Below, piece by piece: positions 2,656-25,000 of a DNA stretch of 25,672 bases. The translations under genes and the position numbers were made by a program. The stretch covers positions 1 through 25,672 of IMG/VR virus record IMGVR_UViG_3300025771_000166; one strand, 5' to 3'. The notes under the pieces are model-generated. The model had not been told where the DNA came from. It saw nothing but the letters and a program-made list of their open reading frames with translations, and searched no databases. Position 1 is the stretch's first letter. Each line of letters begins with the position of its first letter. The DNA is from a virus.

Positions 2656-2663
2656 GATAAATA
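2656..2663 (+). promoter_or_regulatory. T4-type late promoter, one mismatch
   Basis: GATAAATA matches seven of eight positions of the T4 late -10 octamer TATAAATA, read by the phage gp55 sigma-like factor. It lies 36 bases before the glycosyltransferase start, in the short gap after the stop at 2639. A GAAGGA ribosome binding site follows at about 2682-2687. Confidence 0.5.
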
Positions 2664-2698
2664 ACACGATAAAATTGATCTGAAGGATTTTATTACTC

Positions 2699-3499: not shown

Positions 3500-3501
3500 T
3501 A

Positions 3502-3787: not shown

Positions 3788-3848
3788 TTCTTATATCCGG
3801 TCATCCAAAGTCTCTCTTTTGAGGCAAAAGAAGAGGGGGAAATCCAAA

Positions 3849-4304: not shown

Positions 4305-4351
4305 AAACCCCTTAAAAAGTTCTGTTTAACCCTCAAAAAAGGAACAAACAG

Positions 4352-5044: not shown

Positions 5045-6958
5045 ATGGCAATAATAAATTTTACAGACTTAGACTTTGATCAAATAAGGTCATCAATTAA
5101 AGATTACCTTCGATCAAGTTCAGATTTTACGGATTATGATTTTGAAGGATCGAATTTGTCGGTCTTGATAGATATTCTTGCTTATAATACATACATCTCT
5201 TCATACAATGCTAACATGGTTAGCGGTGAAGTTTTTATTGATAGTGCAACTCTTAGAGAAAATGTAGTTTCACTAGCAAGAAATATTGGTTATGTTCCAA
5301 GATCAAGAACTGCAGCAAAAGCAAATATATCATTTTTCGTTGATGTATCTGATTATCCATCAATTCCAAGAATTGTAACTCTATCTAAAGGAATTGTATG
5401 CACTACAGAATCTGATTTTAGTGGGGAAAGTTATACTTTTGTCATAAAAGAAGATATTACAGTTCCTGTTGTAAATGGAATTGCATTCTTTGATAATATT
5501 GAAATTTGTGAAGGAACTTTGTTATCAAGTGAGTTTTTCGTAAGTTCATTAATACCTAATCCACCTCAAAGATATATTATTGACAATGCAAATGTTGACA
5601 TAAGCACTTTATCAGTGTCTGTATTTAAAAATTCTTTAAGTACGATTTCAACTCGATATAAGTTAGCACAAGATATTATTGATGTTGAATCAGATTCAAA
5701 GATATTTTTCATTCAAGAAATTGCCGATCAAAAATATGAATTAATTTTTGGAGATGGAATTTTTGGAAATAAATTAGAAAATAATAATTTAATTAAAGCA
5801 TCATACGTTGTTTCTAATGGACCACTTGGAAATAATCTATCTCAGTTTACCTTTACTGGAAAATTAAACTCTAATACTGGTTTAGTTACTAGGGGAATCT
5901 CCACAATTGAAACAAATACTACATCTTATGGTGGTAATGAGATTGAATCTGTTCAATCAATTAGAAATTATTCGCCAAAATACTACTCTTCACAAAATAG
6001 AGCAGTAACAGCAAATGACTTCAAGGCAATTGTTCCAAGAATTTTTCCAGAATTAGAATCTGTAAACGTTTTTGGTGGAGAAGATTTAAATCCGCCAAGA
6101 TATGGAAAAGTTTTTGTCGCGGTCAAACCTCAAAGTGGAACATTTTTATCTTCAAGTGCAGCTCAGAATTTGAAGAATATGCTTAGAAAATATACTGTTG
6201 CTGGAATTGTAGTTGATGTTATTGATTTAAAATACTTATACATTGAACTTGATAGTACAATTTATTATAATGAAAACTTAACTGATAATGGTCAAACTCC
6301 AAAAAATAAAGTAATTTCCAATTTAGAAAAATATTCAAAATCTCTTGAGTCTGATCAGAGTGATATCAGATTTAAATATAGTAAAGTTTTGAATATAATT
6401 GATCAGAGTGACAAGTCAATCACTTCAAATATTACAAAAGTTTCTTTAAGAAGGGATTTTAGAGCATCAGTTAATCAATTTGCAGAATATGAAATTTGTT
6501 TTGGTAACCAAATTCATATCAATAGTTTAAGTGGATACAACATAAAAACTTCTGGTTTTTCTGTTTCTGGAATTACTGGCGTAGTTTATATTGCAGATAA
6601 ACCAAATCCAGACCAGAAAACTGGAAATCTATTTTTGTTTAAATTATCAACAGAATCCGAAAATCCAATACAGGTCAGACAATCTGTAGGAACTGTAGAT
6701 TATGTGAAAGGTGAGGTACTTTTAAATCCAATTAACATAGTTTCAACTGTTATAGATAGTGGAGAATCCATTGTTGAAATTTCAGTGACTCCAAAATCCA
6801 ATGACGTCATTGGATTGCAAGATTTATATTTACAACTTGATACTAATAAACTAACAGTCACTTCTGTTCCTGACAATATTTCTTCCGGAAATGATATTTC
6901 CGGAAGTAACTATATTACAACCTCAAGTTATACGAATGGAAAATTAATTAGAGAATAA
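5045..6958 (+). CDS. 6: gp6-like baseplate wedge subunit
   Basis: The product has 637 residues, close to T4 gp6 (660). The N-terminal domain carries the gp6/baseplate J signature: SSSDFTDYDFEGSNLSVLID (about 24-43), ILAYNTYISSYNANM, FIDSATLRENVVSLARNIGY (about 67-86), VPRSR. A segment around 320-330 (NRAVTANDFKAIVPRIFPEL) matches the second baseplate-J type module. gp6 forms the inner ring that joins the wedges around the hub and holds the dome in the pre-contraction state. The start follows the gene 25 stop directly. The stop is five bases before the next start. Confidence 0.95.
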   Translation: MAIINFTDLDFDQIRSSIKDYLRSSSDFTDYDFEGSNLSVLIDILAYNTYISSYNANMVSGEVFIDSATLRENVVSLARNIGYVPRSRTAAKANISFFVDVSDYPSIPRIVTLSKGIVCTTESDFSGESYTFVIKEDITVPVVNGIAFFDNIEICEGTLLSSEFFVSSLIPNPPQRYIIDNANVDISTLSVSVFKNSLSTISTRYKLAQDIIDVESDSKIFFIQEIADQKYELIFGDGIFGNKLENNNLIKASYVVSNGPLGNNLSQFTFTGKLNSNTGLVTRGISTIETNTTSYGGNEIESVQSIRNYSPKYYSSQNRAVTANDFKAIVPRIFPELESVNVFGGEDLNPPRYGKVFVAVKPQSGTFLSSSAAQNLKNMLRKYTVAGIVVDVIDLKYLYIELDSTIYYNENLTDNGQTPKNKVISNLEKYSKSLESDQSDIRFKYSKVLNIIDQSDKSITSNITKVSLRRDFRASVNQFAEYEICFGNQIHINSLSGYNIKTSGFSVSGITGVVYIADKPNPDQKTGNLFLFKLSTESENPIQVRQSVGTVDYVKGEVLLNPINIVSTVIDSGESIVEISVTPKSNDVIGLQDLYLQLDTNKLTVTSVPDNISSGNDISGSNYITTSSYTNGKLIRE

Positions 6959-6963
6959 TAGAA

Positions 6964-9900
6964 ATGCAAAAATCAAGGATTAAAATTAGTAATGTTGTAA
7001 AAAACCAACTTCCCAATTTCGTTAGGGAAAATTATCCTCTAGTTGAAAGTCTATTTGTAGAATATTATTCTGGACTTGAGTATAAGGGAGGGGTTTTAGA
7101 TATACTTCAAAATATTGACCAGTATGTTAAACTTGACAATCTTACTAATTTAATTGAAACTACAACTTTAACTAAGGATGTTTCTTTTTCCGACACTAGC
7201 ATTTTTGTTAAAAATACATTGGGATTTCCTGATACACATGGATTGATTCAAATTGATGGTGAAATTATTTTTTACAAGTCAAAAAGTTATTCATCCTTCA
7301 ATGATTGTATTAGAGGTTTTAGTGGCATTACTTCTTATGAAAATGGATTAGAATTTGAATCAACAAGTGCAGAAAAGCATTCAAGTTCTTCTACTGTTAA
7401 AAACTTGAATATTTTATTCATTAATGAATTTTTTAAAAAAATAAAATCTCAGTTTGCTCCAGGTTTTGAAGATAGATCCTTTTTTAGCGGTTCTTCCTTA
7501 AAAATCAATAAAAATATACTGATAAAGCAATTAAAGGATTTTTATACTGCAAAGGGAACAGATGCTTCGTATAAAATATTATTTAAAGCGTTATTTGGTG
7601 ACGATGTTCAGGTAATTAAACCAAGGGATTATCTGATTAGACCTTCAGATGCTCAATATAGAAAAAATCAGCAATTAGTTGTTGAAGCAATCGATGGTGA
7701 TCCAAAAGATCTTGTTAATACTACAATATTTCAAAATACTCTAATTGTAGATGGCAAAGAATTTATTTCTTCTGCTTATGGAACTGTCAATAAAGTTGAA
7801 ACAATCAATAGAGAAGAACAGACTTATTATATCTTAGGTCTTGATTTTGATTTTAATAAAGATATTAATTTGAGAGGATCAGTCTATGGAGAATTTGTAA
7901 TTGGTCCAAAAACAATAATTGTTGAAGATGTTGTTCCGGGATCAACTCAAATAACTGTAGATAGTACATATGGATTTCCAGAAAAGAATGGATCTCTCAT
8001 AGTATACTATGATGACAATACAACCCAGACAATTACGTATGAAAGAAAAAATTTAAATCAATTTTTAGGTTGTCTGGTAACAAGAAGCATTTCAAAGAAA
8101 ACAAACATTTATTTGAATTATACTTGTGAAGGTGGATTGACTTTTGGTGATGACGAAAATCCTATCAAGTTTAGAATTACAGGGGTTTTATCCGAAGCAG
8201 TAGTTGATCCAAATTCTAGGTATATTGTTAGTGGAAATAGAGTTAATTTGAGAACTTTGGGAAAAGATCTCAAAGAATCAAAGTACAATGATTGGAAATT
8301 TAATATATCACCTTCTTATAATATTAAATCCATTTCAATTAGTAATCAGCAAAATAGCATATATACACTCTCTCTGTATGATGATCATATATTTTATGCT
8401 GGAGATGAAGCAATACTAACATCAATCACTGGACCTTTGAAGACTTATGATGCGGTTGTTGAATCTGTAAAAGACATTTTCACTTTAAATATTTCATTAC
8501 CTCTTAATTTTGATTCTTCTCAAAAATATAAAATTGAAAGAAAATCTGGAAAGTTTAAGTTTACTTACAACTCTCAAACTTTTCCAGAATCTAATGATAT
8601 CTATGTTACTGATGTTCAAAATGTATATAAAGGAACAGATGATGTGCTATATGTTTCTTCCCAATCATTGCCAAAATATGGAAAAGAATCTATTGCATTA
8701 AGTGATGAAACTATAACTCTTGGCGAAGACTTTTTTATCACTGAAGAAATTAATGCCAATGATTCTCAAAAAATTGATAAAATTTTAAATATTGGAAAAA
8801 ATTCATTTGTTACTGGAGATGCTCTTTATTATCAATCTGGACCTGATGGAAATTCTTTAAATATTGATCAAGGAATTTATTATGCAAAAGTTCTTGGATC
8901 ATTTAATAATTCGACTCAAATAAAACTTTCTAGTAGTAGAAATAATATTGACAATAATATATTTCTCGATGTTGGATTATCCAACTCAACAACTCGATTG
9001 GTGGGGTCCCAAAATAAATTTTTTAGATCTACAAATGAACTAATTTTCTTCCAGAATACTACTGATGATGAGCAATCTAATTTCAATAGATCAATATCTC
9101 CAAAAAATATTTTCAAAAAAATTGCAAAACCATTAGAACCAAATGAAAGAAGTTTAACTCCTTCTGGAAATATTGGCATTCTTGCCAATGGAGTAGAAAT
9201 TCAAAATTATAAGTCAAATGATTTTATATATTATGGATCTGTTGATAAAGTTGAACCAAAATCTTTTGGAAGTGGATATGATGTTATAAATCCACCAATT
9301 CTCAATATTATAGATTCATCAGGTTCTGGTGCATCGGTAATTTCACATATCAGAGGATCTCTGAATAAAATTGAAGTTTTGGATGGTGGATTTGATTATG
9401 ATGGCATTCCCGAAATAAGAATATCGGGTGGAAATGGTGCAAATGCTATAGCAGTTCCAAATATGACTGTATTTGATCATTTTGTGGAATTTATTGCTGA
9501 GAGTAATCAAGTAAATTTGTCAAATTATACTATCACATTTAATTTAAAGCACAAGTTTTATGAGGGTGAAAGGGTTAGATATGATTATACAGATGTTCCA
9601 ATTGAAGGTTTGCAAAGAGATGTCGATTATTTTATCTCCCCAGATTCTGATTTTACGTTAAAAGTTTATGGAACATTCTTGGATTCTATCAATAAAACAA
9701 ACCCAATAATTTTAACTTCCCTTGCTCCCGGAAAACATTATTTGAAAAGTGTTAATAAAAAATCAAAGATTGGATCTATTAGAGTAATACGATCTGGAAA
9801 AAATTATACAAATAAAAAACTTACATTTAAAAACTCAAATGTAGATCTTTATAGAAATTCTATAAAAATTGATGACCATGGATATAAAACTGGCGAAATA

Positions 9901-12900
9901 GTTGTATATAACTCTGAAGGAACTTCTATATCTGGATTAACTACAAATACTGAATATTATGTCAGCGTTGTTGATAATAACGAGTTTAGACTATGTGGAA
10001 TTAATACAAATCCTTCAGATCCAAAAGAATTTAATTTAAATAGAAACATATTTGTCAATTTTACTGATTTTGGTGTAGGTCCTTATATTCTAAATTATCA
10101 ACCAATTAAAGTTGAAATAGTTGGCGATTTTAAAAATAGATCTCTACCTTTAGATGATATTAGTGCTAAAATTATACCATCATTTTCTGGTGAACTTTTC
10201 TCAACATCGATTGAAAATGGCGGATCTAACTATGGATCGGAAAATATATTAAATTATAATAGACAACCATTAATTGAAGTAAAAAATGGTTCTGGATGTG
10301 AGTTAAGTCCAATTATCGTAAACGGACAAATTAAAAGAGTATTGATTGTTAATGGTGGATCTAATTATAATTCCACTCCTACTATTGAAATTGATGGTAT
10401 TGGATCTGGTGCTAATTTGATACCAAAAATTTCCAATGGTAGGATTATTGATGTAGTAGTTACATCGGAAGGAATAAACTATGATTCCAATGGAACTTCT
10501 CTTAGAGTTGTATCTTCTGGATCTGGAGCAGCATTTGATATTTCTATACAAAGATGGAATGTAAATAATGTAGAAAGATCGATCTTTAAAAATGAGATTA
10601 CATCAAATGATATTTTTCTTTATGATACTAAAAATGAAGATGGTGAAAGAATTACTCAATTAACACATTCATATGCACCAAGAAAATTAAGAGAAAATCT
10701 TTTAGTTTCTAGAATAGAACTTGATCAAATTTTTTATAAAAAAGATTTGGAAGTAGATTTTAATGGAAATGAGTCTTCTGAATCAACTACACACTCTCCA
10801 ATTATAGGTTGGGCATACGATGGAAATCCAATTTATGGTCCATTTGGATTTACTAATCCAGTTGGAGGTGGATTAGTTAAAAAAATGCAGTCTGGTTATT
10901 CTATTTCTTTAAAACCAAATAGACCAAGTACTGTTTTTTTCCCAATAGGATTTTTTGTCGAAGATTATTCATACTTTGATAGTGGTGATCTTGATGAATA
11001 TAATGGAAGATTATGTGTAACTCCGGAGTATCCTAATGGAGTTTATGCGTATTTTTCAACATTGGGAGAAGTTGATACTCAATTCAGCCAAAAATACTTA
11101 AGACCTATTTTCCCATATTTTATTGGAAATCAATACAAATCTACTCCTATTGAATTTAATTTTGATAGTACTACTGATAGTAGTCAAAATTCGGCATCTT
11201 TTGAAGATTTGGGATTGGTTAGAAATACAAATAAGTATAAACTTTTGAGTGATACTGCAGGGTATGATTTTATATTCAACCCTATTGACTATGAAGATCA
11301 ATTAAACAAAGTATCTAGAACTGAAAGAGGTATAATTGATGAAGTTACTATAATATCCGGAGGAGAAAATTATTCTGTAGGTGATAAAATTAAATTTGCT
11401 AAAGATGAATTTGGAAATGAATCTTTTGCTGAAGTATCCGAAATTTCCGGAAAAGAAGTTGAGGAAATATCTTTAATATCCACAAAAATACCAAATGTTG
11501 AATTTGGATCTTCTAGTTTTTCAAATTCTGTTATTGGCGTATCATCTGATCCACATAATCTAAATGATGGAGACCTTATATCAATAATTGGATTGGATGA
11601 ATTGCTTACAAATAGAAAAAAAGATATTAGTTCAACTATTACTGTATTTACAAACGAATTAATATTAAATGAACAAATTGATGTAGGAGGAATCTCAGAT
11701 AATTTTATACCAAAACTAATCTCAGTAAATGGAAATTTAAAGGAATCTGCCATAAGACCAAGTGACATTTATCAAATTGGTGATGAGGAATTTAAAGTTC
11801 TAAATGTCATACCGGAAAATTCCCAAATAAGAATTTTAAGAACTCTTGCTGGAATTGCTTCCCATCCAGCTGGATCAATTTTAGTTGAAAAACCAAGATT
11901 TTTTGAAGTTTCTGCTGTTGATGATGTTTCATCTCCAGTATTTTTTGGGGATAAAAATTATCCAATAAACAAAGAAATATATTTTGATCCTTCAGTTTCT
12001 ATTGGTATTGGTACAGGCGAAAGAAGTATATCAAATATTTTACTTGAAATTGATCCATTAAATTATCAAGTTGGAATTTCTACCGATACTTTAGTATCTG
12101 GAGATCCCGAACCTAAAGTTGGTTTAGTGTTTAACAATTTCATAAATTCATCAAACTTCAAAATTGGCGATTTTATAAATTTGACAGGATCATCTAACAC
12201 TGAATTTGACAATATTGAAGAAGTTGAAGTTCTTAATGTTGGATTTAGTTCTATAACAATAGACTATAATGTAAGCGATTTATCCACAACACAAATAAAT
12301 TCTATTGTTGGGACTGGAGTAACATCATACGTTCAAAAATGGATTGTTAGAAATATTAATACAAGGCAAATATATTTGCCAAATCATGGACTTAAAACTG
12401 GTGATAAAATTGTATACAGTAATAATACAGGATCTCAAATTTTAGTGTCGGAAGACAAAATAAATGAATTTCCTTTGACTGATCCTAGTGATTTGTATGC
12501 ATATGTGTTCGATCAAAATTATATTGGAATTTCCACAGATATTGTGGGGTTAACTACAACCGGTGAATATCTGAATCCAGTGTCCAATGCAACTTTATTT
12601 TATTATACTAACGTTGGATCTAGAAAATATCACAGTATTAGAACAGATAATTCGGATACTTTGGTTGGTAAGATTGCCAAAAATGTTGCAAGAGTAAGAA
12701 CTTTACAAGACCCATCTCTATTTTACAATGAATCTGTCGATATTAAAGTAAAAGATACTTCAGAAAAAACTTTTATTGTAAAATATAATGATGAAAATAG
12801 AAGACTTGTATTTGAACCTAAAGAATTTGTTCAAACAAATCCAATAGATAATACAATTCCAATTTCAAATCATGGATACTCTACTGGTGAAAAAGTTATA

Positions 12901-15900
12901 CACACCACAGATGATTTAACTTCTTCAATAGAAAATAATAAAATTTTCTATATTGTTGTTAAAGATGATAATAGTTTCAGTCTTTCTGAAACTTATCAGG
13001 ACTCTATCTCAAAAAATCCTAGTGTTATTGATATTACAATTACTTCATTTGGAGAAATTTCTCAAGTAAATCCATCAATAGAGTTATATAAAAACCAAAT
13101 TATAAACTTTGACCTGACTGACAAATCTTTATCATTTGTAAATAACGCAAATTCTGTTCCTGCTTTTGATTTTGATTTATATTCTGATGAAAATTTTGTA
13201 AATAAGTTTATAAAATCTGAAAAAGATGATTCTTTTACTGTAACAAAATCTGGTAAAATTGGAGTTGAAAATTTTGCAAAATTAAGGCTGCAAATAAATG
13301 AAAATACTCCAAAAAAACTTTATTATAAGTTATCTTTAGCAAATACAAATTTAAACATTCCGGATTCTAAAACTGAATATAGGGTTGATAATGAGAATAT
13401 TGAAAATGACAGCACTTTGTTCGTTTTGGATAGTGTATATTCTGGAAGAAAAAGAGTTAAATCTACCGGTTCAAATTATTTTGAATATTTTATATCGACT
13501 AGACCAGAAAAAACATCTTACTTAAAAACAAATTCCTCACTTTCATATAATACATCCTCATATTCAACAACTGGATCCATTTCTAAAGTGGATGTACTTT
13601 CTAGAGATAGAAAGTACAGAGTGTTGCCAGGAATTACATCAATTACTTCAAAAACTGGAACCGGAGCATTATTATTTCCTTCCAGTAGAAAAATTGGATT
13701 TGTTAAAAAAGTAGATGTTCAAAATATTGGATTTGATTATAGTGTAGATTATAGCTTGAGACCAACTGGCAATTTGCCCCAATTAATTAATGTAGAGCCA
13801 TTAAGCATATTTAAAGATATTGAAGTGCTAACTATTGGTAAAGATTATACTCTTATACCGAATTTAATAGTTCTTGATGGATTGACAAATGAGTTTGATT
13901 CTCAATCAGAGTTGAAGTTTATTCCAGAAGATTATAAGGTTGAAATTATTCAAAATAGTTCTGGTCTTTTTAATAAGACTCCAATTATTGTGCCAATCAA
14001 TAATTCAAACGGAATCAGCGTTAGAAGTGTATCATATAATGTAGATTCGAAGGTATTAACTTTCATACTAAATCCATCATTCAGCAGTGAAGCAGATTTT
14101 CCTTTTGATGATGGAGATAAAGTTTTATTGGAAAACTTTAGAGTTAATGATATTATTTTTGATCCTATTACAAATGAGGTTACTATAAATCAAAATGTAA
14201 AAGGAATCAATTCCGAAAATTATGGATATGCTTTATTTACAGTAGAAAATGTAAACAAAGCTATCGGTGGCAGTGGCGCAAGTTTCTCAATTGATATGAC
14301 TGACTACTTGGAAGGTGATGAAATTCCAGGAGATTATAGACCAGTCAATTCTTTTGGATATGTTGTTCCTCAAAGTTATTTTCCAACTTTCAATATAACT
14401 CTCCAAAAAAATAATTTTATTCTTGGTGAACAAGTCACTAGTACTAGTGGATTTACTGGTATTGTTGAGTATTGGGATAGGGATAATGAATTTGTTAGCA
14501 TTCTATCCGATGATAAGTTTGTAACTGGTGATAAAATCACAGGAAGGACTTCAAACTTAACTGGAGTTGTTGGAACAGTACAATTCTATGAATCTGAATA
14601 TAAGACAAGTTCTTCAGCTGAAGTTACTAGAGGTTGGGACACTAATATAGGATTCCTCAATGATAATAGTCAAAGAATTCAGGATAGTTTCTATTATCAA
14701 TACTTCTCATATGACTTAAAATCCAAAACACAATTCTCTGAATGGGAAGATGCAGTATCAAGTCTCAATCATGTTTCTGGATTTAAGAAATTCTCCACTT
14801 TTGAGGTTGAATCTTTTACTGGGGAAGAAAATAAAACCACAATTTCATATTCAGAGTTAAACTCAGTTTCCGATTTAATTTCGGTAGTTGATTTAAATTC
14901 TTATGTGGATTTCGATATGGTTTCGGAAAATGCATATTTGCTTGATGGAAGAATTGCATCTGACCAAATTGTATTCAATACGATTCCAATTCAAGATTTT
15001 GCAGAGTCTATTGGAAATAGAGTTTTGACAATAGATGATTTTAGTGGCGAATTTAATAACATTCCAAGGGAAGAAAAATTTGTTGTTGCAGATAGATTCC
15101 CAATCTTCCAAACTAGGTATAGAAAATATTTTACATACGTTAAAGATAAATTGTTCTTTAATGAAAGGCAGTTTGGAATACTTTCCATAATACATGATGA
15201 TTTAAATGGATATGTTAATCAATATGGAAGATTAGATACTCTAGAGGAACTTGGTAATTTTGAATTTGCAATTAATGGAAATTTTGGAGAAATTACTTTT
15301 AATCCTTTTGATTTTGAATTTAATGATTTTGATATTGAGTTGGTTTCATATAGTTTGTTCGATACTTTTGTTGGTCTAGGATCAACTACAACTGAATCAT
15401 ACGAATTGGGCAATATTGTAACTATAGACAACCAAAAAACAACTATTCCTAGCGGGTCAACTGATACAATTGGAATATCAACAGTTCATCTTTCAAATAG
15501 ATCCTCCAAGGTTCTAGTTACTTTAAATGACCAAACTGGTCAATTTAGAGAATCTGTAGAACTAAACCTCACTCATAATGGAACAGATGTTTACATAACC
15601 GAATATGGAAAGTTGTATACAGAAGCGGTAAATCCCCCAATAGGATTTGCAACTTATAGTGCAGAAATCTTGGGATCAGATTTAATTGTCAATGCAACTC
15701 CTACAGTTGCATATGGATCAACACTAGAAGTTAATGTTTTAAATATTTCTGTTGCAGATATTACAAGAACAACATCAGGTTTATTAGCATTAAGTAATAC
15801 TAGATTAGAGTCTGGATTTGTAAACATTCCATTAAGTCCTTCTCCCACAAAAGTTGAAGTTCATCAGCATACTTTAGTATATGGTGGTGCATATTATTAT

Positions 15901-18900
15901 CTCTCTATTGAAGACACGACTAATGGTATATACAATTCTCTAGAACTTACAACTGTAAATAATGATTTGGATGTATATGAAACTCAATTTGGTTCTGTTA
16001 TTAGTGACGATTCTTTAGTTGGACTTGGAACAATTACAACAGAAATTGTAGGAAATAGATGTAGATTATTCTTTACTCCACTGCCAGATAGAAATATTAG
16101 CATTAGATATTATTATCAGGGAGTTAAGACAATTACGGAAGCACCAGAAACTCCAGATAAACTTATATTACCATTAAATGAGTCTCAAATTAATTCATAT
16201 ACTACAGATTATATTGGAACTCAGAATGCAATTAGAAGATCATTTGAACTATTCTATAAAAATAATCGCATTTTAAGAAGAGTTTTCAATGCTTCTAGTT
16301 TTGTTTCAGTTAATTTGTTTGATGACACTATTAAAATACCAAATCATTATTTTAGTACTGGAGAAGAAGTTGTATATGATCCAAATGGAGATGATCCGAT
16401 TAGAATTGCATTAACTGATATTCCGGGAATAGGTGTAACAGATATACTTCCATCAACTCTTTACATTATTAAAGAAAACGATATTAATATAAGAGTTTCT
16501 GCATCGGCATCTCAGGCATTAAGATCTGTTCCTGAATATCTGGATTTGGTGAGTTATGGGACAGGAACAAATCATACATTAACAGGTAAGAGAGGAAATT
16601 CTAGATCATTAATTACTATTGATAATATGATTCAGGCACCTATTGTTTCAACTTCGTTCGAAACAACTTTGGCAGAACCTTTAGGACTGAAAGATGTGAG
16701 AGTTAAAGTAACAAATCCAAATGTGTTTATTGGTGGAGATGTTTTCCAAGTAGATAATGAAATTCTCAGAGTTAAAGTTGTTGGATTTGGTGCAACGAAT
16801 ACACTACTTGTTAATAGATTCTGGTTGGGATCATTACCAGGAGTCCATACTGTTGGTACTGCTTGTACAAAATTAGTTGGAGATTATAATATTGTTGACA
16901 ATACAATCCATTTCTATGATCCTCCATATGGTCCACTTCCAATAACACCAAAAAATCCAAAACCAGATGAAGTTGATTTTGTTGGAATTTCTACTGGTTC
17001 TTCTTTCTCCGGAAGAATATTTAATAAAAGTGGAGAAATTAATGGAGAAAATCCAACATACTCTGACAATATTTTATTAGATGGTCTTTCTGAAGAATTT
17101 ACTGGAATTACAAGTGAGTTTATTTTGAAGGAGAAAGGTTTACCAGTATCTGGTATTTCAACATCAAACCTGTTTGTTCTGGTTAAAAATATACTTCAAA
17201 CTCCTTTTGATGAGGATAGTAATCCAGAAGGTTCGTTTACACTAAGTCGAAACCTTGGAGGAGAAACAACAATAATCTTTAAGCAACAGGATGAAGTTTC
17301 AAATCTTGATGATATTAATTCAACAAACCTTCCCGTTGGTGGCATAATAGTTAGCACTGGTTCTACATTTGGTTCTGGATATCAACCATTAAAAACTGCT
17401 GGCGCAACAGTCACTATTGATGATACTGGATCAATTTCAAACATAACTATTGGTTCTACTGGAAGTGGATATAGATTAGTTGATGGTAAAGAAATTTTTG
17501 TTTCTACATCTTCTATTGCAGTTTCTGGAACATTTACTTTAGAAGTCGTTGATGAAAAAAGTTTATTTGACAAACTTCCATATTCTTCAAGAGCATTATG
17601 TAGTACTGGAATAGGTACGGTATATAATGATGTGGAAATTACTGCATATGATCCAATTGCTTCTACAATTACACTATCCAGTGCTTTAGATGAAGATATT
17701 CCTGCAGGATCCAGAATTTCAGTAAAACTAACAGAATTGTCTACAGAAATAGTTGATATTGGAATTAGAACGGAAAGTAGTGGTGATTATGACGTAAATT
17801 ATATTGGATTTACAACTGTAATTTCAGGATCAATTTCAACTTCAATAAATTTTGTTGATCCTGGAATTGCATTTACTTCTTTCTATGATGTATTTGACAC
17901 AAGAGCATCTGAATCAATTGCTGCTGGATCAACTGTTCTTTATGTTAATAATATTAAAAATATTAATAATATTAATAATTATATTACAGTAAATTCAGAT
18001 TTTAATGTAAAAATTACGGGAATTGGAAATACTTTCATTACACTTGACAGTCCACTATCAACAATTACTTCCAATGATGTAGTAACTATCAGAAGATTTT
18101 CGCCACCAAATATTGAATTTGATTCGCCTATAGGATATTATAACATTCCATTAATTTATAGTTCAGATTCTCCTTCTATAGGAATTGGAACTGGTGCAAA
18201 ATTAAATATATTAGTTGGTGAAGATGGTAGTGTTATTGACTTTAAATTTGTAAATAATGGATATGGGTATAGACCTTTTGAGATATTAACAATTCCAACT
18301 GATGGATTGATTGGAATACCCACAAATACGCAATATCCATTTAGTGAATTCCAAATATTCATAGATGATGTATATGACACTAAGTTTTCTTCTTGGTCTA
18401 TCGGTGATCTTCAAGTTATTGATAAATTCGACGATTTATTCGATAATAGAAGAAAGATTTTCCCAATCAAAATCAATGGAGAAATTAAGTCCATTAGAGC
18501 TAAAAAAGGATCTGCAATTGATATCGAAGCAACTTTAATAGTTCTATTTAATGATATTCTCCAAGTTCCTGGTGAAGGATATGAATTTAATGGCGGAAGT
18601 ATTATAGTGTTCCCAGAACCTCCAAAATTTGGAGACACTGTCACTATAATATTCTATAGAGGAAATAGTGATGTTGATGTAATTGATGTTGATGTTTTAG
18701 AAAATGTTAAAATTGGAGATTCATTAACTATTACAAATGATGTTAAAAAATTAAATGAGAATGAAAGAATTGTTTCTGATATTGTCGCATCCGACTTTGC
18801 AAATACTTTTATTTACTCTGACAAAGGTATTGTCGAAGACTTTAATTTGTTAAGACCTGTTTTACTATCAAAACAAACTGAAGATCTTGTTATTGATGGG

Positions 18901-20490
18901 CAATTTATTGGAAAAGATAGAGTTTATAATGAGGCAAGTATATATCCTTCCGCAAAAATAATATCAGAAATAACTCCATCTTCAACTGAATTTTATGTTG
19001 ACACATTGAAACCATTCTTTGATAATGCAGCAGAAACTATTGAGGATAAAGAAAGAAATTTGATTAAAATAATTGATCAAGAACAAAAATCACCTGCAAT
19101 TGGAACATGTCAGGTTGTTAATGGTGAGGTATCTTCCATTTTAGTTCTTGATGGTGGCGAAGGTTATACAACTGCTCCAAATGTTTCTATTCAATATCCA
19201 TATTTTACAAATCCATCTCCAATTGGAATTGGATTGACCAATATTGATAATATAGTTGGTACTATATCCACAACTGGAATTTCGACAGCGACTATTGGAG
19301 AATTTTTGCTTGGTAGAAATAGTCGTGCTTCTGGAGTTCTTGCTGGAATTACATCTGATAATTTTATTCAAGTTATCCCAACAAGTTTGAATATATTTGA
19401 AGTTGGTGAAGAAATAAATCTGTTCGAATCTGGATTTGTTGCCGATATTGAAACATTGGATTCTACAGAGTTTGCAACAGCAACAGCAACTATTTCTTCT
19501 GGGTCCGTAAATTCTATAACAGTAACAAATTCTGGAATAGGATATACTTATGGTCCAATAAAATCTTTAAGAGTTAAAACTGAAGGTCTTGGTTTTCCAG
19601 AAACTTTAAATTCATCAAACAGTACCTTTACTTCTGCCAGACTTAAAACGAAGACTGGTATTGGTCAAAACGCATCTGCTGATGTTAACCTATTAGTTGA
19701 TCCAATTACTCAAAACTTCATAATTGATAGGACTAATATTAATATTACGAATAAAGGATTTAGATACTCTGTTGGTGATATTTTAGAAGTTGATGTATTT
19801 GATAATCCTGGAATTGGTGAAACTTTTAGAAATTATCCTTTATCAAGACCAATACAGTTTGAAGTTTCTCAAATTGAAACTCCACAAATTTCAATCGATC
19901 CACCCACAGTTAAGACTGAAGTAATACCAGATGTTTCTTTCTTTGGAGACTATGGAGTAATTGTTGGAGTTACTACAATTGCAAGTATTCCTATTGGTCC
20001 TGTTGTTGTACCTGGTTTGGTATTTGATTTATATATTCCAGAAGATTCTATTCTTAGAGATTCTGCATTCATAGGAAATACTGTTGTTGGATCTGCAATT
20101 ACAGTATCTCAGTTGGATCTAGGAGACTACTTTTCTATAAGCAATGCAAATATTGCAAATTCCCCAAACACAACTTATAACAATGCAGGAAATGTTATAG
20201 GAATTTCTACAAATTTGAATAATATATATCAAGTTATTTTCCCAGCAGTTACTGTTAATAAGTTCAGTCCCAAATATGGCAATATTTTGGTCAGAAGGAT
20301 TATATGTGCTGTTTCTACTTTATATGATGACTTTGGTGCTTCATACATCAATGATATTGGTCAATTTAGTTGGGGCAAAATTTCTAATTTATCGAAGAGA
20401 ATTGATCCAAAATCTTTCTTAATTGATAATAATCCAATAGTTCAAAGAGTTAATCCATTGAAATTCTCAAATTATGATTATGAACCATAA
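6964..20490 (+). CDS. Giant modular baseplate/structural protein (4508 aa) in the gene 7 slot
   Basis: One uninterrupted frame of 13.5 kb, with AGAAATG at the start. Residues 1-240 look like a conserved baseplate-type domain: NFVRENYPLVESLFVEYYSG (about 18-37), then QLKDFYTAKGTDASYKILFK and LFGDDVQVIKPRDY. Beta modules follow in three recurrent styles: a T-x-I-x-V-x-x-x-x-G-F-P type (about 66-121, 320-351, and 3230-3300); a NHG-x-x-T-G-(D/E) type (969, 1807, 1969, 3127); and a GGSGY type (772, 1087, 1130, 3470, 3766, 4070, 4190). A YHYH-type motif, GWAYDGNPIYGPFGF, is at 1282-1296. The C-terminus (FSPKYGNILVRRI...NPLKFSNYDYEP) looks like a separate conserved end domain. No catalytic site or membrane segment is clear. 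Position between genes 6 and 8 equals T4 gene 7 (1032 aa), but sequence identity with gp7 is not evident, so the gp7-equivalent role is inference. It may also carry fibre or adhesin functions. Confidence 0.92.
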   Translation: MQKSRIKISNVVKNQLPNFVRENYPLVESLFVEYYSGLEYKGGVLDILQNIDQYVKLDNLTNLIETTTLTKDVSFSDTSIFVKNTLGFPDTHGLIQIDGEIIFYKSKSYSSFNDCIRGFSGITSYENGLEFESTSAEKHSSSSTVKNLNILFINEFFKKIKSQFAPGFEDRSFFSGSSLKINKNILIKQLKDFYTAKGTDASYKILFKALFGDDVQVIKPRDYLIRPSDAQYRKNQQLVVEAIDGDPKDLVNTTIFQNTLIVDGKEFISSAYGTVNKVETINREEQTYYILGLDFDFNKDINLRGSVYGEFVIGPKTIIVEDVVPGSTQITVDSTYGFPEKNGSLIVYYDDNTTQTITYERKNLNQFLGCLVTRSISKKTNIYLNYTCEGGLTFGDDENPIKFRITGVLSEAVVDPNSRYIVSGNRVNLRTLGKDLKESKYNDWKFNISPSYNIKSISISNQQNSIYTLSLYDDHIFYAGDEAILTSITGPLKTYDAVVESVKDIFTLNISLPLNFDSSQKYKIERKSGKFKFTYNSQTFPESNDIYVTDVQNVYKGTDDVLYVSSQSLPKYGKESIALSDETITLGEDFFITEEINANDSQKIDKILNIGKNSFVTGDALYYQSGPDGNSLNIDQGIYYAKVLGSFNNSTQIKLSSSRNNIDNNIFLDVGLSNSTTRLVGSQNKFFRSTNELIFFQNTTDDEQSNFNRSISPKNIFKKIAKPLEPNERSLTPSGNIGILANGVEIQNYKSNDFIYYGSVDKVEPKSFGSGYDVINPPILNIIDSSGSGASVISHIRGSLNKIEVLDGGFDYDGIPEIRISGGNGANAIAVPNMTVFDHFVEFIAESNQVNLSNYTITFNLKHKFYEGERVRYDYTDVPIEGLQRDVDYFISPDSDFTLKVYGTFLDSINKTNPIILTSLAPGKHYLKSVNKKSKIGSIRVIRSGKNYTNKKLTFKNSNVDLYRNSIKIDDHGYKTGEIVVYNSEGTSISGLTTNTEYYVSVVDNNEFRLCGINTNPSDPKEFNLNRNIFVNFTDFGVGPYILNYQPIKVEIVGDFKNRSLPLDDISAKIIPSFSGELFSTSIENGGSNYGSENILNYNRQPLIEVKNGSGCELSPIIVNGQIKRVLIVNGGSNYNSTPTIEIDGIGSGANLIPKISNGRIIDVVVTSEGINYDSNGTSLRVVSSGSGAAFDISIQRWNVNNVERSIFKNEITSNDIFLYDTKNEDGERITQLTHSYAPRKLRENLLVSRIELDQIFYKKDLEVDFNGNESSESTTHSPIIGWAYDGNPIYGPFGFTNPVGGGLVKKMQSGYSISLKPNRPSTVFFPIGFFVEDYSYFDSGDLDEYNGRLCVTPEYPNGVYAYFSTLGEVDTQFSQKYLRPIFPYFIGNQYKSTPIEFNFDSTTDSSQNSASFEDLGLVRNTNKYKLLSDTAGYDFIFNPIDYEDQLNKVSRTERGIIDEVTIISGGENYSVGDKIKFAKDEFGNESFAEVSEISGKEVEEISLISTKIPNVEFGSSSFSNSVIGVSSDPHNLNDGDLISIIGLDELLTNRKKDISSTITVFTNELILNEQIDVGGISDNFIPKLISVNGNLKESAIRPSDIYQIGDEEFKVLNVIPENSQIRILRTLAGIASHPAGSILVEKPRFFEVSAVDDVSSPVFFGDKNYPINKEIYFDPSVSIGIGTGERSISNILLEIDPLNYQVGISTDTLVSGDPEPKVGLVFNNFINSSNFKIGDFINLTGSSNTEFDNIEEVEVLNVGFSSITIDYNVSDLSTTQINSIVGTGVTSYVQKWIVRNINTRQIYLPNHGLKTGDKIVYSNNTGSQILVSEDKINEFPLTDPSDLYAYVFDQNYIGISTDIVGLTTTGEYLNPVSNATLFYYTNVGSRKYHSIRTDNSDTLVGKIAKNVARVRTLQDPSLFYNESVDIKVKDTSEKTFIVKYNDENRRLVFEPKEFVQTNPIDNTIPISNHGYSTGEKVIHTTDDLTSSIENNKIFYIVVKDDNSFSLSETYQDSISKNPSVIDITITSFGEISQVNPSIELYKNQIINFDLTDKSLSFVNNANSVPAFDFDLYSDENFVNKFIKSEKDDSFTVTKSGKIGVENFAKLRLQINENTPKKLYYKLSLANTNLNIPDSKTEYRVDNENIENDSTLFVLDSVYSGRKRVKSTGSNYFEYFISTRPEKTSYLKTNSSLSYNTSSYSTTGSISKVDVLSRDRKYRVLPGITSITSKTGTGALLFPSSRKIGFVKKVDVQNIGFDYSVDYSLRPTGNLPQLINVEPLSIFKDIEVLTIGKDYTLIPNLIVLDGLTNEFDSQSELKFIPEDYKVEIIQNSSGLFNKTPIIVPINNSNGISVRSVSYNVDSKVLTFILNPSFSSEADFPFDDGDKVLLENFRVNDIIFDPITNEVTINQNVKGINSENYGYALFTVENVNKAIGGSGASFSIDMTDYLEGDEIPGDYRPVNSFGYVVPQSYFPTFNITLQKNNFILGEQVTSTSGFTGIVEYWDRDNEFVSILSDDKFVTGDKITGRTSNLTGVVGTVQFYESEYKTSSSAEVTRGWDTNIGFLNDNSQRIQDSFYYQYFSYDLKSKTQFSEWEDAVSSLNHVSGFKKFSTFEVESFTGEENKTTISYSELNSVSDLISVVDLNSYVDFDMVSENAYLLDGRIASDQIVFNTIPIQDFAESIGNRVLTIDDFSGEFNNIPREEKFVVADRFPIFQTRYRKYFTYVKDKLFFNERQFGILSIIHDDLNGYVNQYGRLDTLEELGNFEFAINGNFGEITFNPFDFEFNDFDIELVSYSLFDTFVGLGSTTTESYELGNIVTIDNQKTTIPSGSTDTIGISTVHLSNRSSKVLVTLNDQTGQFRESVELNLTHNGTDVYITEYGKLYTEAVNPPIGFATYSAEILGSDLIVNATPTVAYGSTLEVNVLNISVADITRTTSGLLALSNTRLESGFVNIPLSPSPTKVEVHQHTLVYGGAYYYLSIEDTTNGIYNSLELTTVNNDLDVYETQFGSVISDDSLVGLGTITTEIVGNRCRLFFTPLPDRNISIRYYYQGVKTITEAPETPDKLILPLNESQINSYTTDYIGTQNAIRRSFELFYKNNRILRRVFNASSFVSVNLFDDTIKIPNHYFSTGEEVVYDPNGDDPIRIALTDIPGIGVTDILPSTLYIIKENDINIRVSASASQALRSVPEYLDLVSYGTGTNHTLTGKRGNSRSLITIDNMIQAPIVSTSFETTLAEPLGLKDVRVKVTNPNVFIGGDVFQVDNEILRVKVVGFGATNTLLVNRFWLGSLPGVHTVGTACTKLVGDYNIVDNTIHFYDPPYGPLPITPKNPKPDEVDFVGISTGSSFSGRIFNKSGEINGENPTYSDNILLDGLSEEFTGITSEFILKEKGLPVSGISTSNLFVLVKNILQTPFDEDSNPEGSFTLSRNLGGETTIIFKQQDEVSNLDDINSTNLPVGGIIVSTGSTFGSGYQPLKTAGATVTIDDTGSISNITIGSTGSGYRLVDGKEIFVSTSSIAVSGTFTLEVVDEKSLFDKLPYSSRALCSTGIGTVYNDVEITAYDPIASTITLSSALDEDIPAGSRISVKLTELSTEIVDIGIRTESSGDYDVNYIGFTTVISGSISTSINFVDPGIAFTSFYDVFDTRASESIAAGSTVLYVNNIKNINNINNYITVNSDFNVKITGIGNTFITLDSPLSTITSNDVVTIRRFSPPNIEFDSPIGYYNIPLIYSSDSPSIGIGTGAKLNILVGEDGSVIDFKFVNNGYGYRPFEILTIPTDGLIGIPTNTQYPFSEFQIFIDDVYDTKFSSWSIGDLQVIDKFDDLFDNRRKIFPIKINGEIKSIRAKKGSAIDIEATLIVLFNDILQVPGEGYEFNGGSIIVFPEPPKFGDTVTIIFYRGNSDVDVIDVDVLENVKIGDSLTITNDVKKLNENERIVSDIVASDFANTFIYSDKGIVEDFNLLRPVLLSKQTEDLVIDGQFIGKDRVYNEASIYPSAKIISEITPSSTEFYVDTLKPFFDNAAETIEDKERNLIKIIDQEQKSPAIGTCQVVNGEVSSILVLDGGEGYTTAPNVSIQYPYFTNPSPIGIGLTNIDNIVGTISTTGISTATIGEFLLGRNSRASGVLAGITSDNFIQVIPTSLNIFEVGEEINLFESGFVADIETLDSTEFATATATISSGSVNSITVTNSGIGYTYGPIKSLRVKTEGLGFPETLNSSNSTFTSARLKTKTGIGQNASADVNLLVDPITQNFIIDRTNINITNKGFRYSVGDILEVDVFDNPGIGETFRNYPLSRPIQFEVSQIETPQISIDPPTVKTEVIPDVSFFGDYGVIVGVTTIASIPIGPVVVPGLVFDLYIPEDSILRDSAFIGNTVVGSAITVSQLDLGDYFSISNANIANSPNTTYNNAGNVIGISTNLNNIYQVIFPAVTVNKFSPKYGNILVRRIICAVSTLYDDFGASYINDIGQFSWGKISNLSKRIDPKSFLIDNNPIVQRVNPLKFSNYDYEP
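9241..9474 (+). repeat. Protein-level GGSGY-type repeats, first cluster
   Basis: Within the giant protein (about residues 760-836) two copies of a beta module appear: SFGSGYDVINPPILNI with GSGASV, then LDGGFDYDGIPEIRISGGNG with GANAIAV. The pattern is G-x-x-Y-x-x-x-P-x-(I/V)-x-I followed by G-(S/N)-G-A. It is diverged at DNA level. Confidence 0.7.
10198..10554 (+). repeat. Protein-level GGSGY-type repeats, three tandem copies
   Basis: Residues about 1079-1197 of the giant protein: ENGGSNYGSENIL with GSGCELSPI; NGQIKRVLIVNGGSNYNSTP with GSGANLIPKI; and NGRIIDVVVTSEGINYDS with GSGAAFDISI. Each unit is about 36-42 residues and the pieces align end to end. The same unit is found again at about 3470, 3766, 4070 and 4190 and once in gp8. 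Confidence 0.8.
17944..17985 (+). repeat. AT-only microsatellite inside the giant gene
   Basis: A run built from AATATTAAT/AATATTAAAA units encodes NNIKNINNINNYI. It keeps the reading frame. Such a tract can change length by slippage in steps that preserve frame when whole 9-base units are gained or lost. Confidence 0.65.
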
Positions 20491-20524: not shown

Positions 20525-22042
20525 ATGTCGGCAATTATAACTGACCAACTTAGGATATCTAATGCACTTGGTTTTATTGAAAAGGTCAATTCTCCAGATA
20601 ATGCATATTATGTATTTTTGGGTTTGTCAAACTCAACAGAATACTTATCTACTTGGGAAGAGTTGCCACCCTTTCCAAGAGATAATTTTAATGAAGAAAA
20701 TACAGTGTGGGATACTATGTTTTCGTTGAAAAAAATATCTCCTGGTGATGTTTCTCCTGTTATAAGAAGAATAAATTGGGAGTCTGGAAGAACTTATGAT
20801 ATGTATCGTAATGATATAAGTATAGACAAACGTGCAAATCAAACCGATTCCACCTCTTTATATGCTTCCGATTATTATGTTATAACTCAAGATTATAGAG
20901 TCTATATTTGCCTCCAAAATGGAACGACTCCAGAATCTTCTAGTGGAAATCCATCATTAGATGAACCAACTTTTACAGATTTGGAACCAAGGGCTGCTGG
21001 TACAAGTGGAGATGGTTATATTTGGAAATATCTTTATACAATAAGACCTAGCGAAATTATTAAATTTGATAGCACCAATTTTATTCCAGTTCCTAGGGAT
21101 TGGAAAACTAACTCAGATTATTCTGCAGTAATTGAAAATGCATCTTCAAGCGGACAATTGAAGATTGTTACTATATTAGATAGAGGTAGAAATTTAGGTG
21201 CACCTGGACTTTATCAAAATATTCCAATTAAAGGTGATGGATCAGGTGCTACAGTAACTATTATTATTGGTAGTGACAGAACTGTTGATAGCGTTTTCGT
21301 ATCTAATGGAGGAAGTGGATATACTTATGGAACAATTGATTTAGAAAGTTCTGGATTATTTTTAACAGATCCTCCAAAGTTTTCTGTTATTATTCCACCA
21401 AAAGGAGGTCATGGAGCAGATATTTACAGAGAACTTGGTTCAACAAATGTTCTTCTTTATTCTAGAATTGAAAATGATATTGGAGATCCTGACTTTATTG
21501 TTGGCAACAAAGTTGCAAGAGTTGGAATTGTTCAAAATCCAGAAGCATTCGATTCAACATCAATTTTAAATAAACAAAAGGCAAGTTCTGTATATGCATT
21601 AAAATTGAGACCTAATTCTGCAACAATTTTACCAAACTCAACATTCACTCAAGATATTGTTGGTGTTGGAACTGCTGTAGGAAGAGTTGTTTCTTATGAT
21701 AGTGAAACTGGAGTTATAAAATATTGGCAAGATAGAACATTATATGGGTATACAACATCGGGAATATCAACAAATTCTGTTAATGGATATTCCCAAATTC
21801 AATTTACCAGTGAAAATAATATTGACGTAAACAATATTATTATTGAAGTTGATGATGATTTTAGTGGTATATCTACGGTAATAAATAATGGTACTGTGTA
21901 CCTTGGTCAAAATTTTGAAAATGGATTTGCTAATCCAGAGGTAAAAAAATATACAGGAGATATTATATACATTGATAATAGACCTTCAATTAGCAGATCT
22001 TTAAATCAAAAAGAGGATATTAAAGTCGTTTTACAATTCTAA
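20525..22042 (+). CDS. 8: gp8-like baseplate wedge subunit with an inserted repeat
   Basis: The product has 505 residues against 334 for T4 gp8. The N-terminal half shows the gp8 pattern: NAYYVFLGLSNSTEYLSTW, then PPFPRDNFNEENTVWDTMF, VIRRINWESGRTYDMY and the conserved GTSGDGYIWKYLYTI (about 159-173). The C-terminus, YIDNRPSISRSLNQKEDI...VLQF, matches the end of T4 gp8 (Y-x-E-N-R-P-x-I...Q-x-E-x-I-x-I-L-F). gp8 is a dimeric wedge protein that binds the wedge with gp7 and gp10 in T4. The extra length is explained in part by a GGSGY-type module (about 234-275, GDGSGATVTI then VSNGGSGYTYG) like those in the giant protein. There is no strong Shine-Dalgarno; ATG 20525 is chosen because the gp8-like N-terminus begins there. 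Confidence 0.93.
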   Translation: MSAIITDQLRISNALGFIEKVNSPDNAYYVFLGLSNSTEYLSTWEELPPFPRDNFNEENTVWDTMFSLKKISPGDVSPVIRRINWESGRTYDMYRNDISIDKRANQTDSTSLYASDYYVITQDYRVYICLQNGTTPESSSGNPSLDEPTFTDLEPRAAGTSGDGYIWKYLYTIRPSEIIKFDSTNFIPVPRDWKTNSDYSAVIENASSSGQLKIVTILDRGRNLGAPGLYQNIPIKGDGSGATVTIIIGSDRTVDSVFVSNGGSGYTYGTIDLESSGLFLTDPPKFSVIIPPKGGHGADIYRELGSTNVLLYSRIENDIGDPDFIVGNKVARVGIVQNPEAFDSTSILNKQKASSVYALKLRPNSATILPNSTFTQDIVGVGTAVGRVVSYDSETGVIKYWQDRTLYGYTTSGISTNSVNGYSQIQFTSENNIDVNNIIIEVDDDFSGISTVINNGTVYLGQNFENGFANPEVKKYTGDIIYIDNRPSISRSLNQKEDIKVVLQF

Positions 22043-22054: not shown

Positions 22055-25000
22055 ATGCCACAAGAAACTAATTTGAATGTAACTCCTTATTTTGATGATT
22101 TTGATGATCAAAAGAACTTTTATAAGGTTCTTTTTAAGCCAGGATACCCCATTCAGTCCAGAGAATTGACAACTTTACAGTCAATTCTTCAAAATCAAAT
22201 TGAAAAATTTGGATCACATATCTTTAAGGAAGGATCTCCAGTTCTCGGCGGAAACGTTGTATACAATAATTATTATGAAGGAATTCAAGTAGAATCAAGT
22301 TATCTTGGTATTTCTGTAGATTTGTATTTGAATAATTTTATTGGCAAGTATTTGATTGGACAAGACTCTCAGGTAAAAGGGAGAGTTGAATTTGTTTTGC
22401 CAGCAAATGAATCTCCAACATCAAATACCATAATTTATGTTTCATACAGAGATTCAAATTCCACTCAAAACACTAGACAGTTTAATTCTGGAGAAGTTTT
22501 ACTTTCCGAAGGAGATGTTCCTATAGTTTCTGGTGGATTTACTAATATTCAGGCAGGCCAAGGAGTAGGAAGAGTTACTACTGAAAATTCTTCTATTGTC
22601 GGATCTTCTGTTACTATTGCTGATGGTGTGTATTTTATTAGAGGTTATTTTGTAAATATTAAGCAGGAAACTTTAATATTAGATCCTGTTGCAAATAATG
22701 TAAATTATAGTATTGGATTGAAAGTAATTGAAGATATTGTTACTGCAGATGATGATGAATCTCTCGTAGATAATTCGCAAGGATTTACAAATTTTGCTGC
22801 TCCAGGTGCTGATAGACTTTCTATTACAGCATCTTTGGCAAAATATTCATTTACAGAGTCTCAAGATGAAGGGTACATCGAATTATTTAAAGTTGTAGAT
22901 GGATCCCCAGATAAAGTACAAAGAGATGCTGAGTATAATCTTCTTGCAAATGAGTTTGCAAGAAGAACTTATGATGAATCTGGTGATTATTATGTAACGC
23001 CATTTAAAGTTGATGTTAGAGAATCATTAGATAATTTAAAGGGAAATAAGGGAATATTTAAATCAGGACAAAATACATATGGCAATAATGTTGCCGATGA
23101 ATCTCTTGGAATTTATAAAGTATCTCCAGGAAAGGCATATATTAGAGGATTTGAAGTAGAACTACCTAATCCAACTTTTATAGATTTTCCAAAACCAAGA
23201 ATTGAAAAAACTTTAGAAAATCAAAGTATTGTTTATACAACCGGTTCAACGTTTACTCTGAATAGAGTTGATGGAAATCCATCTCTAGGAATTTCAACGG
23301 ATTATACGGTATCATTAAGATCAGAAAGACTTGGTGTAGATGATAATGTAGCACCTGGTAAGGAGATTGGTCTTGCTAGAGTATATGATTTTGCATTAGA
23401 ATCTGGTTCATATAATACAATATTTCCAAATTCTAATGAGTGGGATATTACTTTATTTGATGTTCAACCATACATTGAATTAAATTTAAATAATCCTGTC
23501 ACATTACAAGTACCAACATTTATCAAAGGAAGTTCCAGTGGAGCTTCGGCATATTTGAGAGAATCAATTACAAATTCCGGAATTGTTACTGCATATAATA
23601 TTGATGGCAAATTCTTAAGAGGCGAAAAACTTAGTTTTGATAGTATTCAAAATAATAGAATTATACAATCATTTACTGAGTATGATGTAAATGATTTTAA
23701 ATCAGTTTATGCACCACCGGTTGGTTCTGGTGCAACTTTTAGTGCAGATTTAGTACAAAAAGTAAAATCATTTGTAGGGTCTGTAACCATTTCTCCTGAA
23801 GTTAGTGGAATTAGCACTGTAACAAGTTCTAATTTTGTTTTTAGAGGTGCTTCAAAGGTAAATGATATTATTGCATACTCAACTCCAGGGAATGTTGAAC
23901 CAACTTATGCAAAAATTACTTCAATTTCTGAAAAAACGTTGGAAATTGAATCAGTTACTGCTGTTTCTGGTGTTTGTGTATCAATTCTTCCTTCTACTAC
24001 CTTATCAGTTTCCGATTTTAGAATTCTAAAATCTGGATTACAAGATTCTACTGACAATACTTTATTTACAGTTTTTCCTAAGGATAAGATTTCTTCTTTG
24101 GATTTGGAAGATTCTGAATTAATTATAAGAAGACAAAAAACGATTAATATTTCAGCAAATACTTCAGAGACTATTGTTCTTTCTGCAAATGAAAGATTCT
24201 TACCATATGATGAAGAAAGATATTCTATTTTTTACTCTGATGGAAGTGTAGAACCACTGAGAGAAGATAAGTTTTTCTTCACGTTAGGATCTCAAAGTTT
24301 AAGAATAAATGGATTAACTGCTACTAGCGGAACAGCAACTTTAACTTACACAATAAAGAAACTTAATGTTTCTGCAAAAGTAAAAAATAGAAATAGAGTT
24401 AATTCTATTATAGTAGATAAGTCAAAATATAATTATTCTGGTGTAGGGCAAACCACTCTCAATGATGGTCTAGAGTTTGGTAACTATCCTTATGGTACTA
24501 GAGTTCAAGATGAAGATATTTGTTTAAGATATCCAGATGTAACAAAACTTTTAGGAGTATTTGAAACATCTAGTGCTAGTGATACTCCACAACTACAGTC
24601 AATTACATTAAATATAACTGATTTCACTACTTCAAACTTAATTTTAGGTGAAGAAATAGTTGGACAAGATAGTAATTGTGTTGCCATTTTGGTCGAAAGA
24701 ATCAACAATAATACCGTAAGTTATATTAGTTTAAATTCTTCATCCTTTAATGATGGGGAAGGTGTTGAGTTTAAAGAATCTAACATAGTCTCTTCAATTT
24801 CAGCATTGAATAGGGGAAATTGTAGAGATATTACTGACAATTTTATTTTCAATAATGGACAAAAGAATACTTTCTATGATTATGGTAGAATAACTAGAAA
24901 AGAAAGTTCTAGAGAACCTCTTAAAAAGTTAAAAATTGTTTTTGAATCAACTTCTATCGATTCTGCAGATGAAGGAAGTTTCTTCTCAGTTGATTCATAT

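Follow-up and report, generated by a model that had tools for sequence, protein, structure and literature searches.

The wedge of contractile-tail baseplates is a (gp6)2-gp7 complex with gp25 on top. In T4, gp7 is the wedge protein of the (gp6)2-gp7 core bundle and trifurcation unit, on which the outer baseplate is assembled from the separate proteins gp9-gp12. T4 gp7 (1,032 aa; PDB 5IV5) has its conserved core at residues ~643-890, with 640 residues (fibronectin-like and other domains) ahead of it. Many cyanophages encode chains that are already annotated as 'gp7, baseplate wedge initiator', e.g. those of S-SM2 (4,156 aa), P-SSM2 (5,195 aa), Bellamy (4,067 aa), P-HM1 (4,446 aa), S-RIM8 (about 6,395 aa) and P-SSM4 (7,312 aa), the last being named the largest bacterial-virus protein in a 2021 survey (PMC8553790). 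Two chains of this type have been detected by mass spectrometry, S-SZBM1_208 in purified virions (6,619 aa, 724 kDa, 13.5% coverage; PMC9146016) and S-CREM2 gp122 in virions (1,937 aa, 91 unique peptides; PMC10665884). Proteins of intermediate size occupy the same slot in the Stenotrophomonas phage Ps15 (503 aa) and the Sinorhizobium phage phiN3 (1,006 aa), both with VrlC downstream of gp8.

The DNA analysed here (the window; 25,672 nucleotides of the IMG/VR record IMGVR_UViG_3300025771_000166) contains a giant ORF on the + strand (6964..20490) that runs from ATG to stop over 4,508 codons with 0 internal stops, and encodes a protein of computed mass 499.4 kDa and pI 4.6. It begins 5 bases after gp6 and ends 34 before gp8. 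Profile matches to the neighbours, all on the + strand, give the order gp25-gp6-giant gp7-gp8-VrlC, in which the T4-type gp7 slot between gp6 and gp8 is occupied: the sheath-initiator wedge protein gp25 (4643..5044; PF04965 E 1.6e-15, phrog_261 E 7.4e-54), the wedge protein gp6 (5045..6958; phrog_219 E 8.6e-189, PF21379 E 1.6e-16), the wedge protein gp8 (20525..22042; PF09215 E 2.1e-18) and a VrlC-type/DUF4815 protein truncated by the window end (22055..25672; PF16075 E 1.2e-50, phrog_358 E 2.4e-294). The order gp6-gp7-gp8 is shared with T4. An earlier interpretation made from the letters of this DNA, the sequence-only reading, put T4 gp7 at about a quarter of the size of the window protein, as the lengths (1,032 vs 4,508 aa) bear out. 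Cyanophage gp7 lengths range from 1,937 to 7,312 aa, within which 4,508 aa is mid-range and not unusual.

The gp7 proteins of S-SM2, Bellamy, P-SSM2 and SynMITS9220M01 (PHROG 2885; 4,067-5,195 aa) resemble the window protein in slot, modules and possession of the two core halves described below, but are just 33-37% identical to it over the N-terminal ~730 residues; relative to them, three segments, near residues 1,650-1,800, 3,450-3,750 and 4,050-4,350, are extra in the window lineage. P-SSM4 gp7 and S-SZBM1_208 share the slot and the core, but have a longer C-terminal arm.

The sequence-only reading saw no clear gp7 similarity and took the giant protein to replace gp7. Neither view survives profile comparison, in which both core halves match T4 gp7, residues 1-305 and ~2550-2643 being homologous to its core. 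The first half of the core (residues 1-305; 6964..7878, + strand) comprises a helix-turn-helix (residues 8-60), the motif FYTAKGTDASYKILFKALFGDDVQV (residues 193-217) and a small beta domain. It is homologous to T4 gp7 residues ~678-790, i.e. the helices and KGT motif of the conserved helical/trifurcation part. A cyanophage-only N-terminal profile matches T4 gp7 residues 707-758 with E 1.2e-8, while none of 2,000 shuffled proteins does better than 0.33. When phiN3 and Ps15 are added to the first-half profile, a search of 177,635 PDB sequences gives T4-like gp7 proteins as its sole significant matches (best E 2.7e-6); searched against the six-frame translated T4 genome, the first-half profile matches gene 7 only (E 3.8e-9), and hhalign aligns the first half with T4 gp7 678-790 at E 1.1e-7. 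The T4 gp7 family profile, phrog_964, matches residues 190-217 of the window protein (E 4.1e-5), and the 503-aa Ps15 homologue aligns with residues 177-305. First-half matches occur in ~490 records. The match to phrog_2885, 'baseplate wedge subunit', is full-length (E 0, 2,928 bits; residues 2-4108 against model positions 6-3989 of 4179).

Only alignment-based searches detect the relationship: residues 1-479, run alone as a phmmer query, give no match in PDB; a megablast search of the region against phages likewise gives none. The AlphaFold monomer model of residues 1-345 is of low confidence (mean pLDDT 60), but its top two Foldseek matches are T4-like gp7 chains (E 1.8e-3 and 7.3e-3, TM 0.14), a suggestive result in which the second chain, 5iv5_BJ, was assigned to gp7 by length. 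P2 gpI, the P2 counterpart of gp7, does not match the giant gp7 (hhalign probability 0.2%), though the two may be related at the level of structure.

The second half of the core (residues ~2550-2643; 14611..14892, + strand) carries the motif DSFYYQYFSYDLKSKTQFSEWEDAVSSLNHVSGF and is assigned by profile matches. Just past the core, the gp7 proteins of T4 (YYVMKIKSNLPSSRWKSDVIRFVHPVGF), Ps15 (YQQFSYTIVSPIPADRYDAFVDDLLHPAGY) and phiN3 share a motif, the counterpart of which in the window protein is at residue 2577 (YYQYFSYDLKSKTQFSEWEDAVSSLNHVSGF). The cyanophage-only second-half profile matches phiN3 gp7 (E 1.7e-14), Ps15 gp7 (E 7.6e-11) and T4 gp7 residues 861-888 (E 0.0041). With phiN3 and Ps15 included, T4 gp7 is the sole PDB sequence at E<=10 (E 0.25), and a search of the T4 genome with the intermediates included matches gene 7 only (E 5.4e-4), downstream of the first half. 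The second half thereby corresponds to T4 gp7 residues 861-889, downstream on the same chain. Against T4 gp7 the match spans just 24-28 residues and is, taken alone, marginal (E 0.0041; 0.25 against all PDB), so the assignment rests on the intermediates, on the uniqueness of the match and on its order and position. Where the sequence-only reading would have compared residues 1-240 and the last 150 with T4 gp7, the N-terminal part matches as proposed, but the second core half is found at residues ~2550-2643 and not in the last 150. It is highly likely that the giant protein, from a marine-type cyanophage, is orthologous to T4 gp7 and has its core in two pieces and two arms.

Every complete homologue has its two core halves on a single chain with the order preserved, and what varies is the number of residues between them: 103 in T4, 239 in Ps15, 757 in phiN3, 1,527 in S-PM2, 2,252 in the giant gp7 described here (most cyanophages have 2,058-2,266), 2,377 in the IMG/VR contig L077 and 2,636 in S-RIM8. 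S-SZBM1_208 and S-CREM2 gp122, the two virion-detected chains, both carry the two halves; in gp122 they are separated by ~1,590 residues and the chain ends just past the second half, without a C-terminal arm. In Ps15 and phiN3 gp7 both halves are likewise present, with at most a short C-terminal arm. T4 gp7 lacks the large insertion between the halves and has a different C terminus. The core of the giant gp7 begins at residue 1, with no domains before it of the kind formed by T4 gp7 residues 1-640. As judged from these alignments, ~2,250 added residues split a T4-like core into two parts, and ~1,900 more, the ~1,865-residue C-terminal arm, come after it.

Modules recur within the added residues. 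Profile self-comparison and module search identify at least four repeated module types in 25 copies (six of A, 13 of B, three of C in tandem and three of D), in agreement with the earlier claim of many beta modules. The inserted stretch that separates the core halves (residues ~306-2549; 7879..14610, + strand) carries beta modules, with type A at residues 608, 854, 965, 1800 and 1962 and type B at 756, 787, 1068, 1109, 1147, 1451, 2202 and 2232. One type D module lies within the first core half itself (residues 66-115; 7159..7308, + strand), where it is absent from phiN3, Ps15 and T4 gp7, and has a second copy at residues 316-370. The AlphaFold model of residues 730-1440 (mean pLDDT 77.6, mostly >90 over ~760-1190) is mainly beta and resembles predicted cyanophage gp7, baseplate and fibre proteins. 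Foldseek of this model against PDB gives nothing at E<=0.001; its weak matches to flavivirus E proteins and endosialidases are not credible.

Type B modules are also found near residues 206-269 of the window gp8, and Ps15 gp7, at only 503 aa, already has three of them in its gap between the halves. On this basis the giant gp7 looks to have grown by module gain, with the Ps15 form representing a stepwise intermediate, and the B-type module is, by its distribution, a repeat shared across marine T4-like baseplates. As a separate observation, the hub/lysozyme profile (phrog_1922) and the phrog_460 profile match gp7, which has B-type modules in common with gp8.

The C-terminal arm (residues 2644-4508; 14893..20487, + strand) has three tandem C modules at residues 2697-3040, followed by A, D and B modules. 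The sequence-only reading described the ends of the protein as conserved-looking, which applies to the N-terminal end and to the last ~210 residues (recognisable in 22 of 22 relatives), but not to the last ~10, which are not conserved. In S-SSM7, B23, S-PM2 and four IMG/VR contigs the arm is carried by a further gene, the first chain retaining both core halves, and P-TIM68 has an extra gene at the arm position. The expectation that split genes would part the core halves was rejected, as every split case keeps both on the first chain (8/8 multi-gene slots), and gene breaks, as placed by the profile matches, fall solely after the core. In contigs L063, L069, L082 and L087 the split leaves a ~2,550-aa chain whose end lies ~80-140 residues past the second core half and whose stop codon is followed within a few bases by an ATG; in phage B23 (L005:16004-27783) gp7 is annotated as two ORFs of 2,845 and 1,081 aa with a 4-base overlap, both halves lying on the first. 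In P-SSM4 and S-SZBM1 a further stretch of ~500 residues is inserted past residue ~113, and S-RIM8 and S-RIM2 have the same break.

The separate coding of the arm in several relatives implies that a single chain is not needed, and raises the question of whether the giant chain is made whole and then cut by a protease, such that the mature wedge contains two or three separate proteins. We consider this unlikely, as the published virion table lists S-SZBM1_208 as a single 724 kDa entry, albeit one with which cutting is still compatible.

A different proposal is that the arms are chiefly enzymatic, or a receptor-cleaving device, rather than structural. Residues 1272-1367 (10777..11064, + strand) match PF14240 (E 1.5e-22; model positions 87-182 of 193), a YHYH family segment that is kept in the other cyanophage gp7 proteins examined; the YHYH family is a predicted metal hydrolase (PMC7824862). 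However, the giant gp7 has the second half of the domain only, the half bearing the YHYH histidines being absent, whereas a separate S-SZBM1 protein has a fuller domain, and an enzymatic role for the arms is accordingly rated as quite improbable. That separate protein, S-SZBM1_207 (L127:12634-14232), includes the motif and is encoded between the giant gp7 and gp8 genes. The possibility that YHYH has been mutated to YAYF in gp7 was rejected, as in S-SZBM1_207 YHYH sits earlier in the domain, in the half that the gp7 copy lacks.

Pelagi- and cyanomyophages have been reported to lack gp7 and to have VrlC as its substitute (PMC7029224). That report, together with the negligible overall identity of the giant chain to T4 gp7, which is invisible to ordinary pairwise reading, would favour displacement of gp7 by an unrelated giant protein, with VrlC or the giant chain doing the gp7 job without common ancestry. 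By contrast, cyanophages and HTVC008M each encode, between gp6 and gp8, a single chain that has both core halves, both halves match within T4 gene 7, and VrlC is present alongside, downstream of gp8; displacement is thus highly improbable. In HTVC008M, I899_gp055 (L130:3436-6486) is a 1,016-aa ORF with both halves, located between gp6 and gp8 with VrlC after gp8, but annotated as 'head closure Hc2'; it is very probably a mislabelled gp7. By the matches to this ORF and its position, the reported absence of gp7 and its substitution by VrlC are contradicted.

Labels of this kind, 'head and packaging' and 'head closure Hc2', are also carried by phrog_4406, 701, 19630, 18802, 3465 and 460, all of which match, and could be taken to mean that the giant chain is a head or neck protein. 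The matches of phrog_4406, 701, 19630, 18802 and 3465 are on the core halves or on gp7-type chains between gp6 and gp8, however, and that of phrog_460 is to B-type repeats only, making a head or neck assignment highly improbable. The five families phrog_3465, 4406, 701, 18802 and 19630 seem to be mislabelled in the same manner as HTVC008M gp7.

The giant frame is real and is under purifying selection throughout. Its description as 13.5 kb open between gp6 and gp8 is upheld: three other IMG/VR contigs, with >=99.98% identity to the window DNA, each have the same 4,508-aa ORF, and relatives down to ~54% N-terminal identity have stop-free open frames of 3,993-4,536 aa, bar one split gene. In 22 records the C-terminal query lies within an unbroken frame of this length, the exception being one 1,505-aa frame, a split gene. 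Compared with a 78%-identical relative (L093), dN/dS is ~0.16 across the entire chain and 0.12-0.24 in each full 500-residue block, with no neutral block. The same ORF in other contigs, the open frames in relatives and the low dN/dS together argue that the frame is not due to chance or misassembly. An assembly or fusion artefact, for which unusual length alone speaks, can be dismissed, being refuted by the independent contigs, the similar-length open frames in relatives and isolate genomes and the dN/dS of ~0.16 throughout.

The G+C content falls from ~0.45-0.51 in the small-gene region (window 1-2050) to ~0.28-0.33 in the baseplate genes (4000-25672). The relatives checked have a comparable step, which therefore characterises the lineage. 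A chimeric contig with a GC-rich left end was considered and rejected, as L009 is collinear over the whole region and L011, L014 and L016-L024 are so in pieces, and relatives share the step. At the boundary there is a short tandem repeat (window 2168-2239), TCTAAAACCCCC, then TCTAAAACCCCCTATGGATT. The small-gene region also encodes an ArdA-like anti-restriction protein (window 606-1148, + strand; phrog_36653 E 2e-41), to which relatives from S-SZBM1 and S-PM2 are 58-62% identical.

With respect to function, we infer that the giant gp7 sits in the wedge bundle, with one chain per wedge, anchored at the wedge centre. From there, the chain would exit the core, pass through ~2,250 residues of beta modules and re-enter to complete the core, so forming a closed loop arm, before exiting again as a free tail, the ~1,865-residue C-terminal arm. 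If there are six copies as in T4, they would contribute about 27,000 residues per baseplate, in line with the earlier figure of more than 20,000; both this copy number and a peripheral location of the arms are presumed. The collar, skirt or side fibres suggested by the sequence-only reading are likewise conjectural. Most likely the arms would build the baseplate periphery, binding or acting as receptor-binding elements, and would replace the N-terminal 640 residues of T4 gp7 together with gp9, gp10 and gp11. Searches of six cyanophages, phiN3 and Ps15 recovered no member of the T4 gp9/gp10 (PF07880) and gp11 (PF08677) families, and the simplest reading of this absence from eight relatives is that covalent arms stand in for the outer baseplate. 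An adsorption signal might then pass via gp7, gp6 and gp25 to the sheath, although a role of the arms in receptor binding and signalling is proposed tentatively, at somewhat under even chances. The highest dN/dS values (0.21-0.35) and lineage-specific segments occur at residues ~1501-2000 and ~4001-4500 (window ~11464-12963 and ~18964-20463), and these regions are candidates for the host-facing portions of the arms.

There is precedent for additions to gp7 proteins. In the gp7 orthologue of Vibrio phage XM1, gp17 (242 aa), an internal loop and a C-terminal tail each hold six tail spikes (PMC10457771), and on that published description it may be likened to the giant gp7 as a functional parallel, with additions at what may be similar places. 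In AlgoCIS, the gp7-like part has been described as a re-engineering hotspot (PMC8894135).

The giant gp7 chains reach 7,312 residues and rank with the largest known phage proteins, but their relation to T4 gp7 is not spelled out in the open-access literature searched, in which no paper describing a two-part gp7 core was found. The two core halves provide a coordinate system for any such chain, i.e. core, loop arm and tail arm, and locating them corrects family labels, several gp7 families being filed as head proteins. The role of the extra thousands of residues becomes a question answerable by one cryo-EM map of S-SM2, P-SSM4 or S-SZBM1. It may be, though we put this forward with some reservation, that the outer baseplate of marine T4-like phages has become covalent. 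In this view gp7 would have kept its core intact and gained beta modules, of kinds shared with neighbouring baseplate and fibre proteins, at no more than three fixed positions, namely past residue ~113, in the gap that parts the core halves and at the C-terminal end, to become one chain per wedge with receptor-facing arms.
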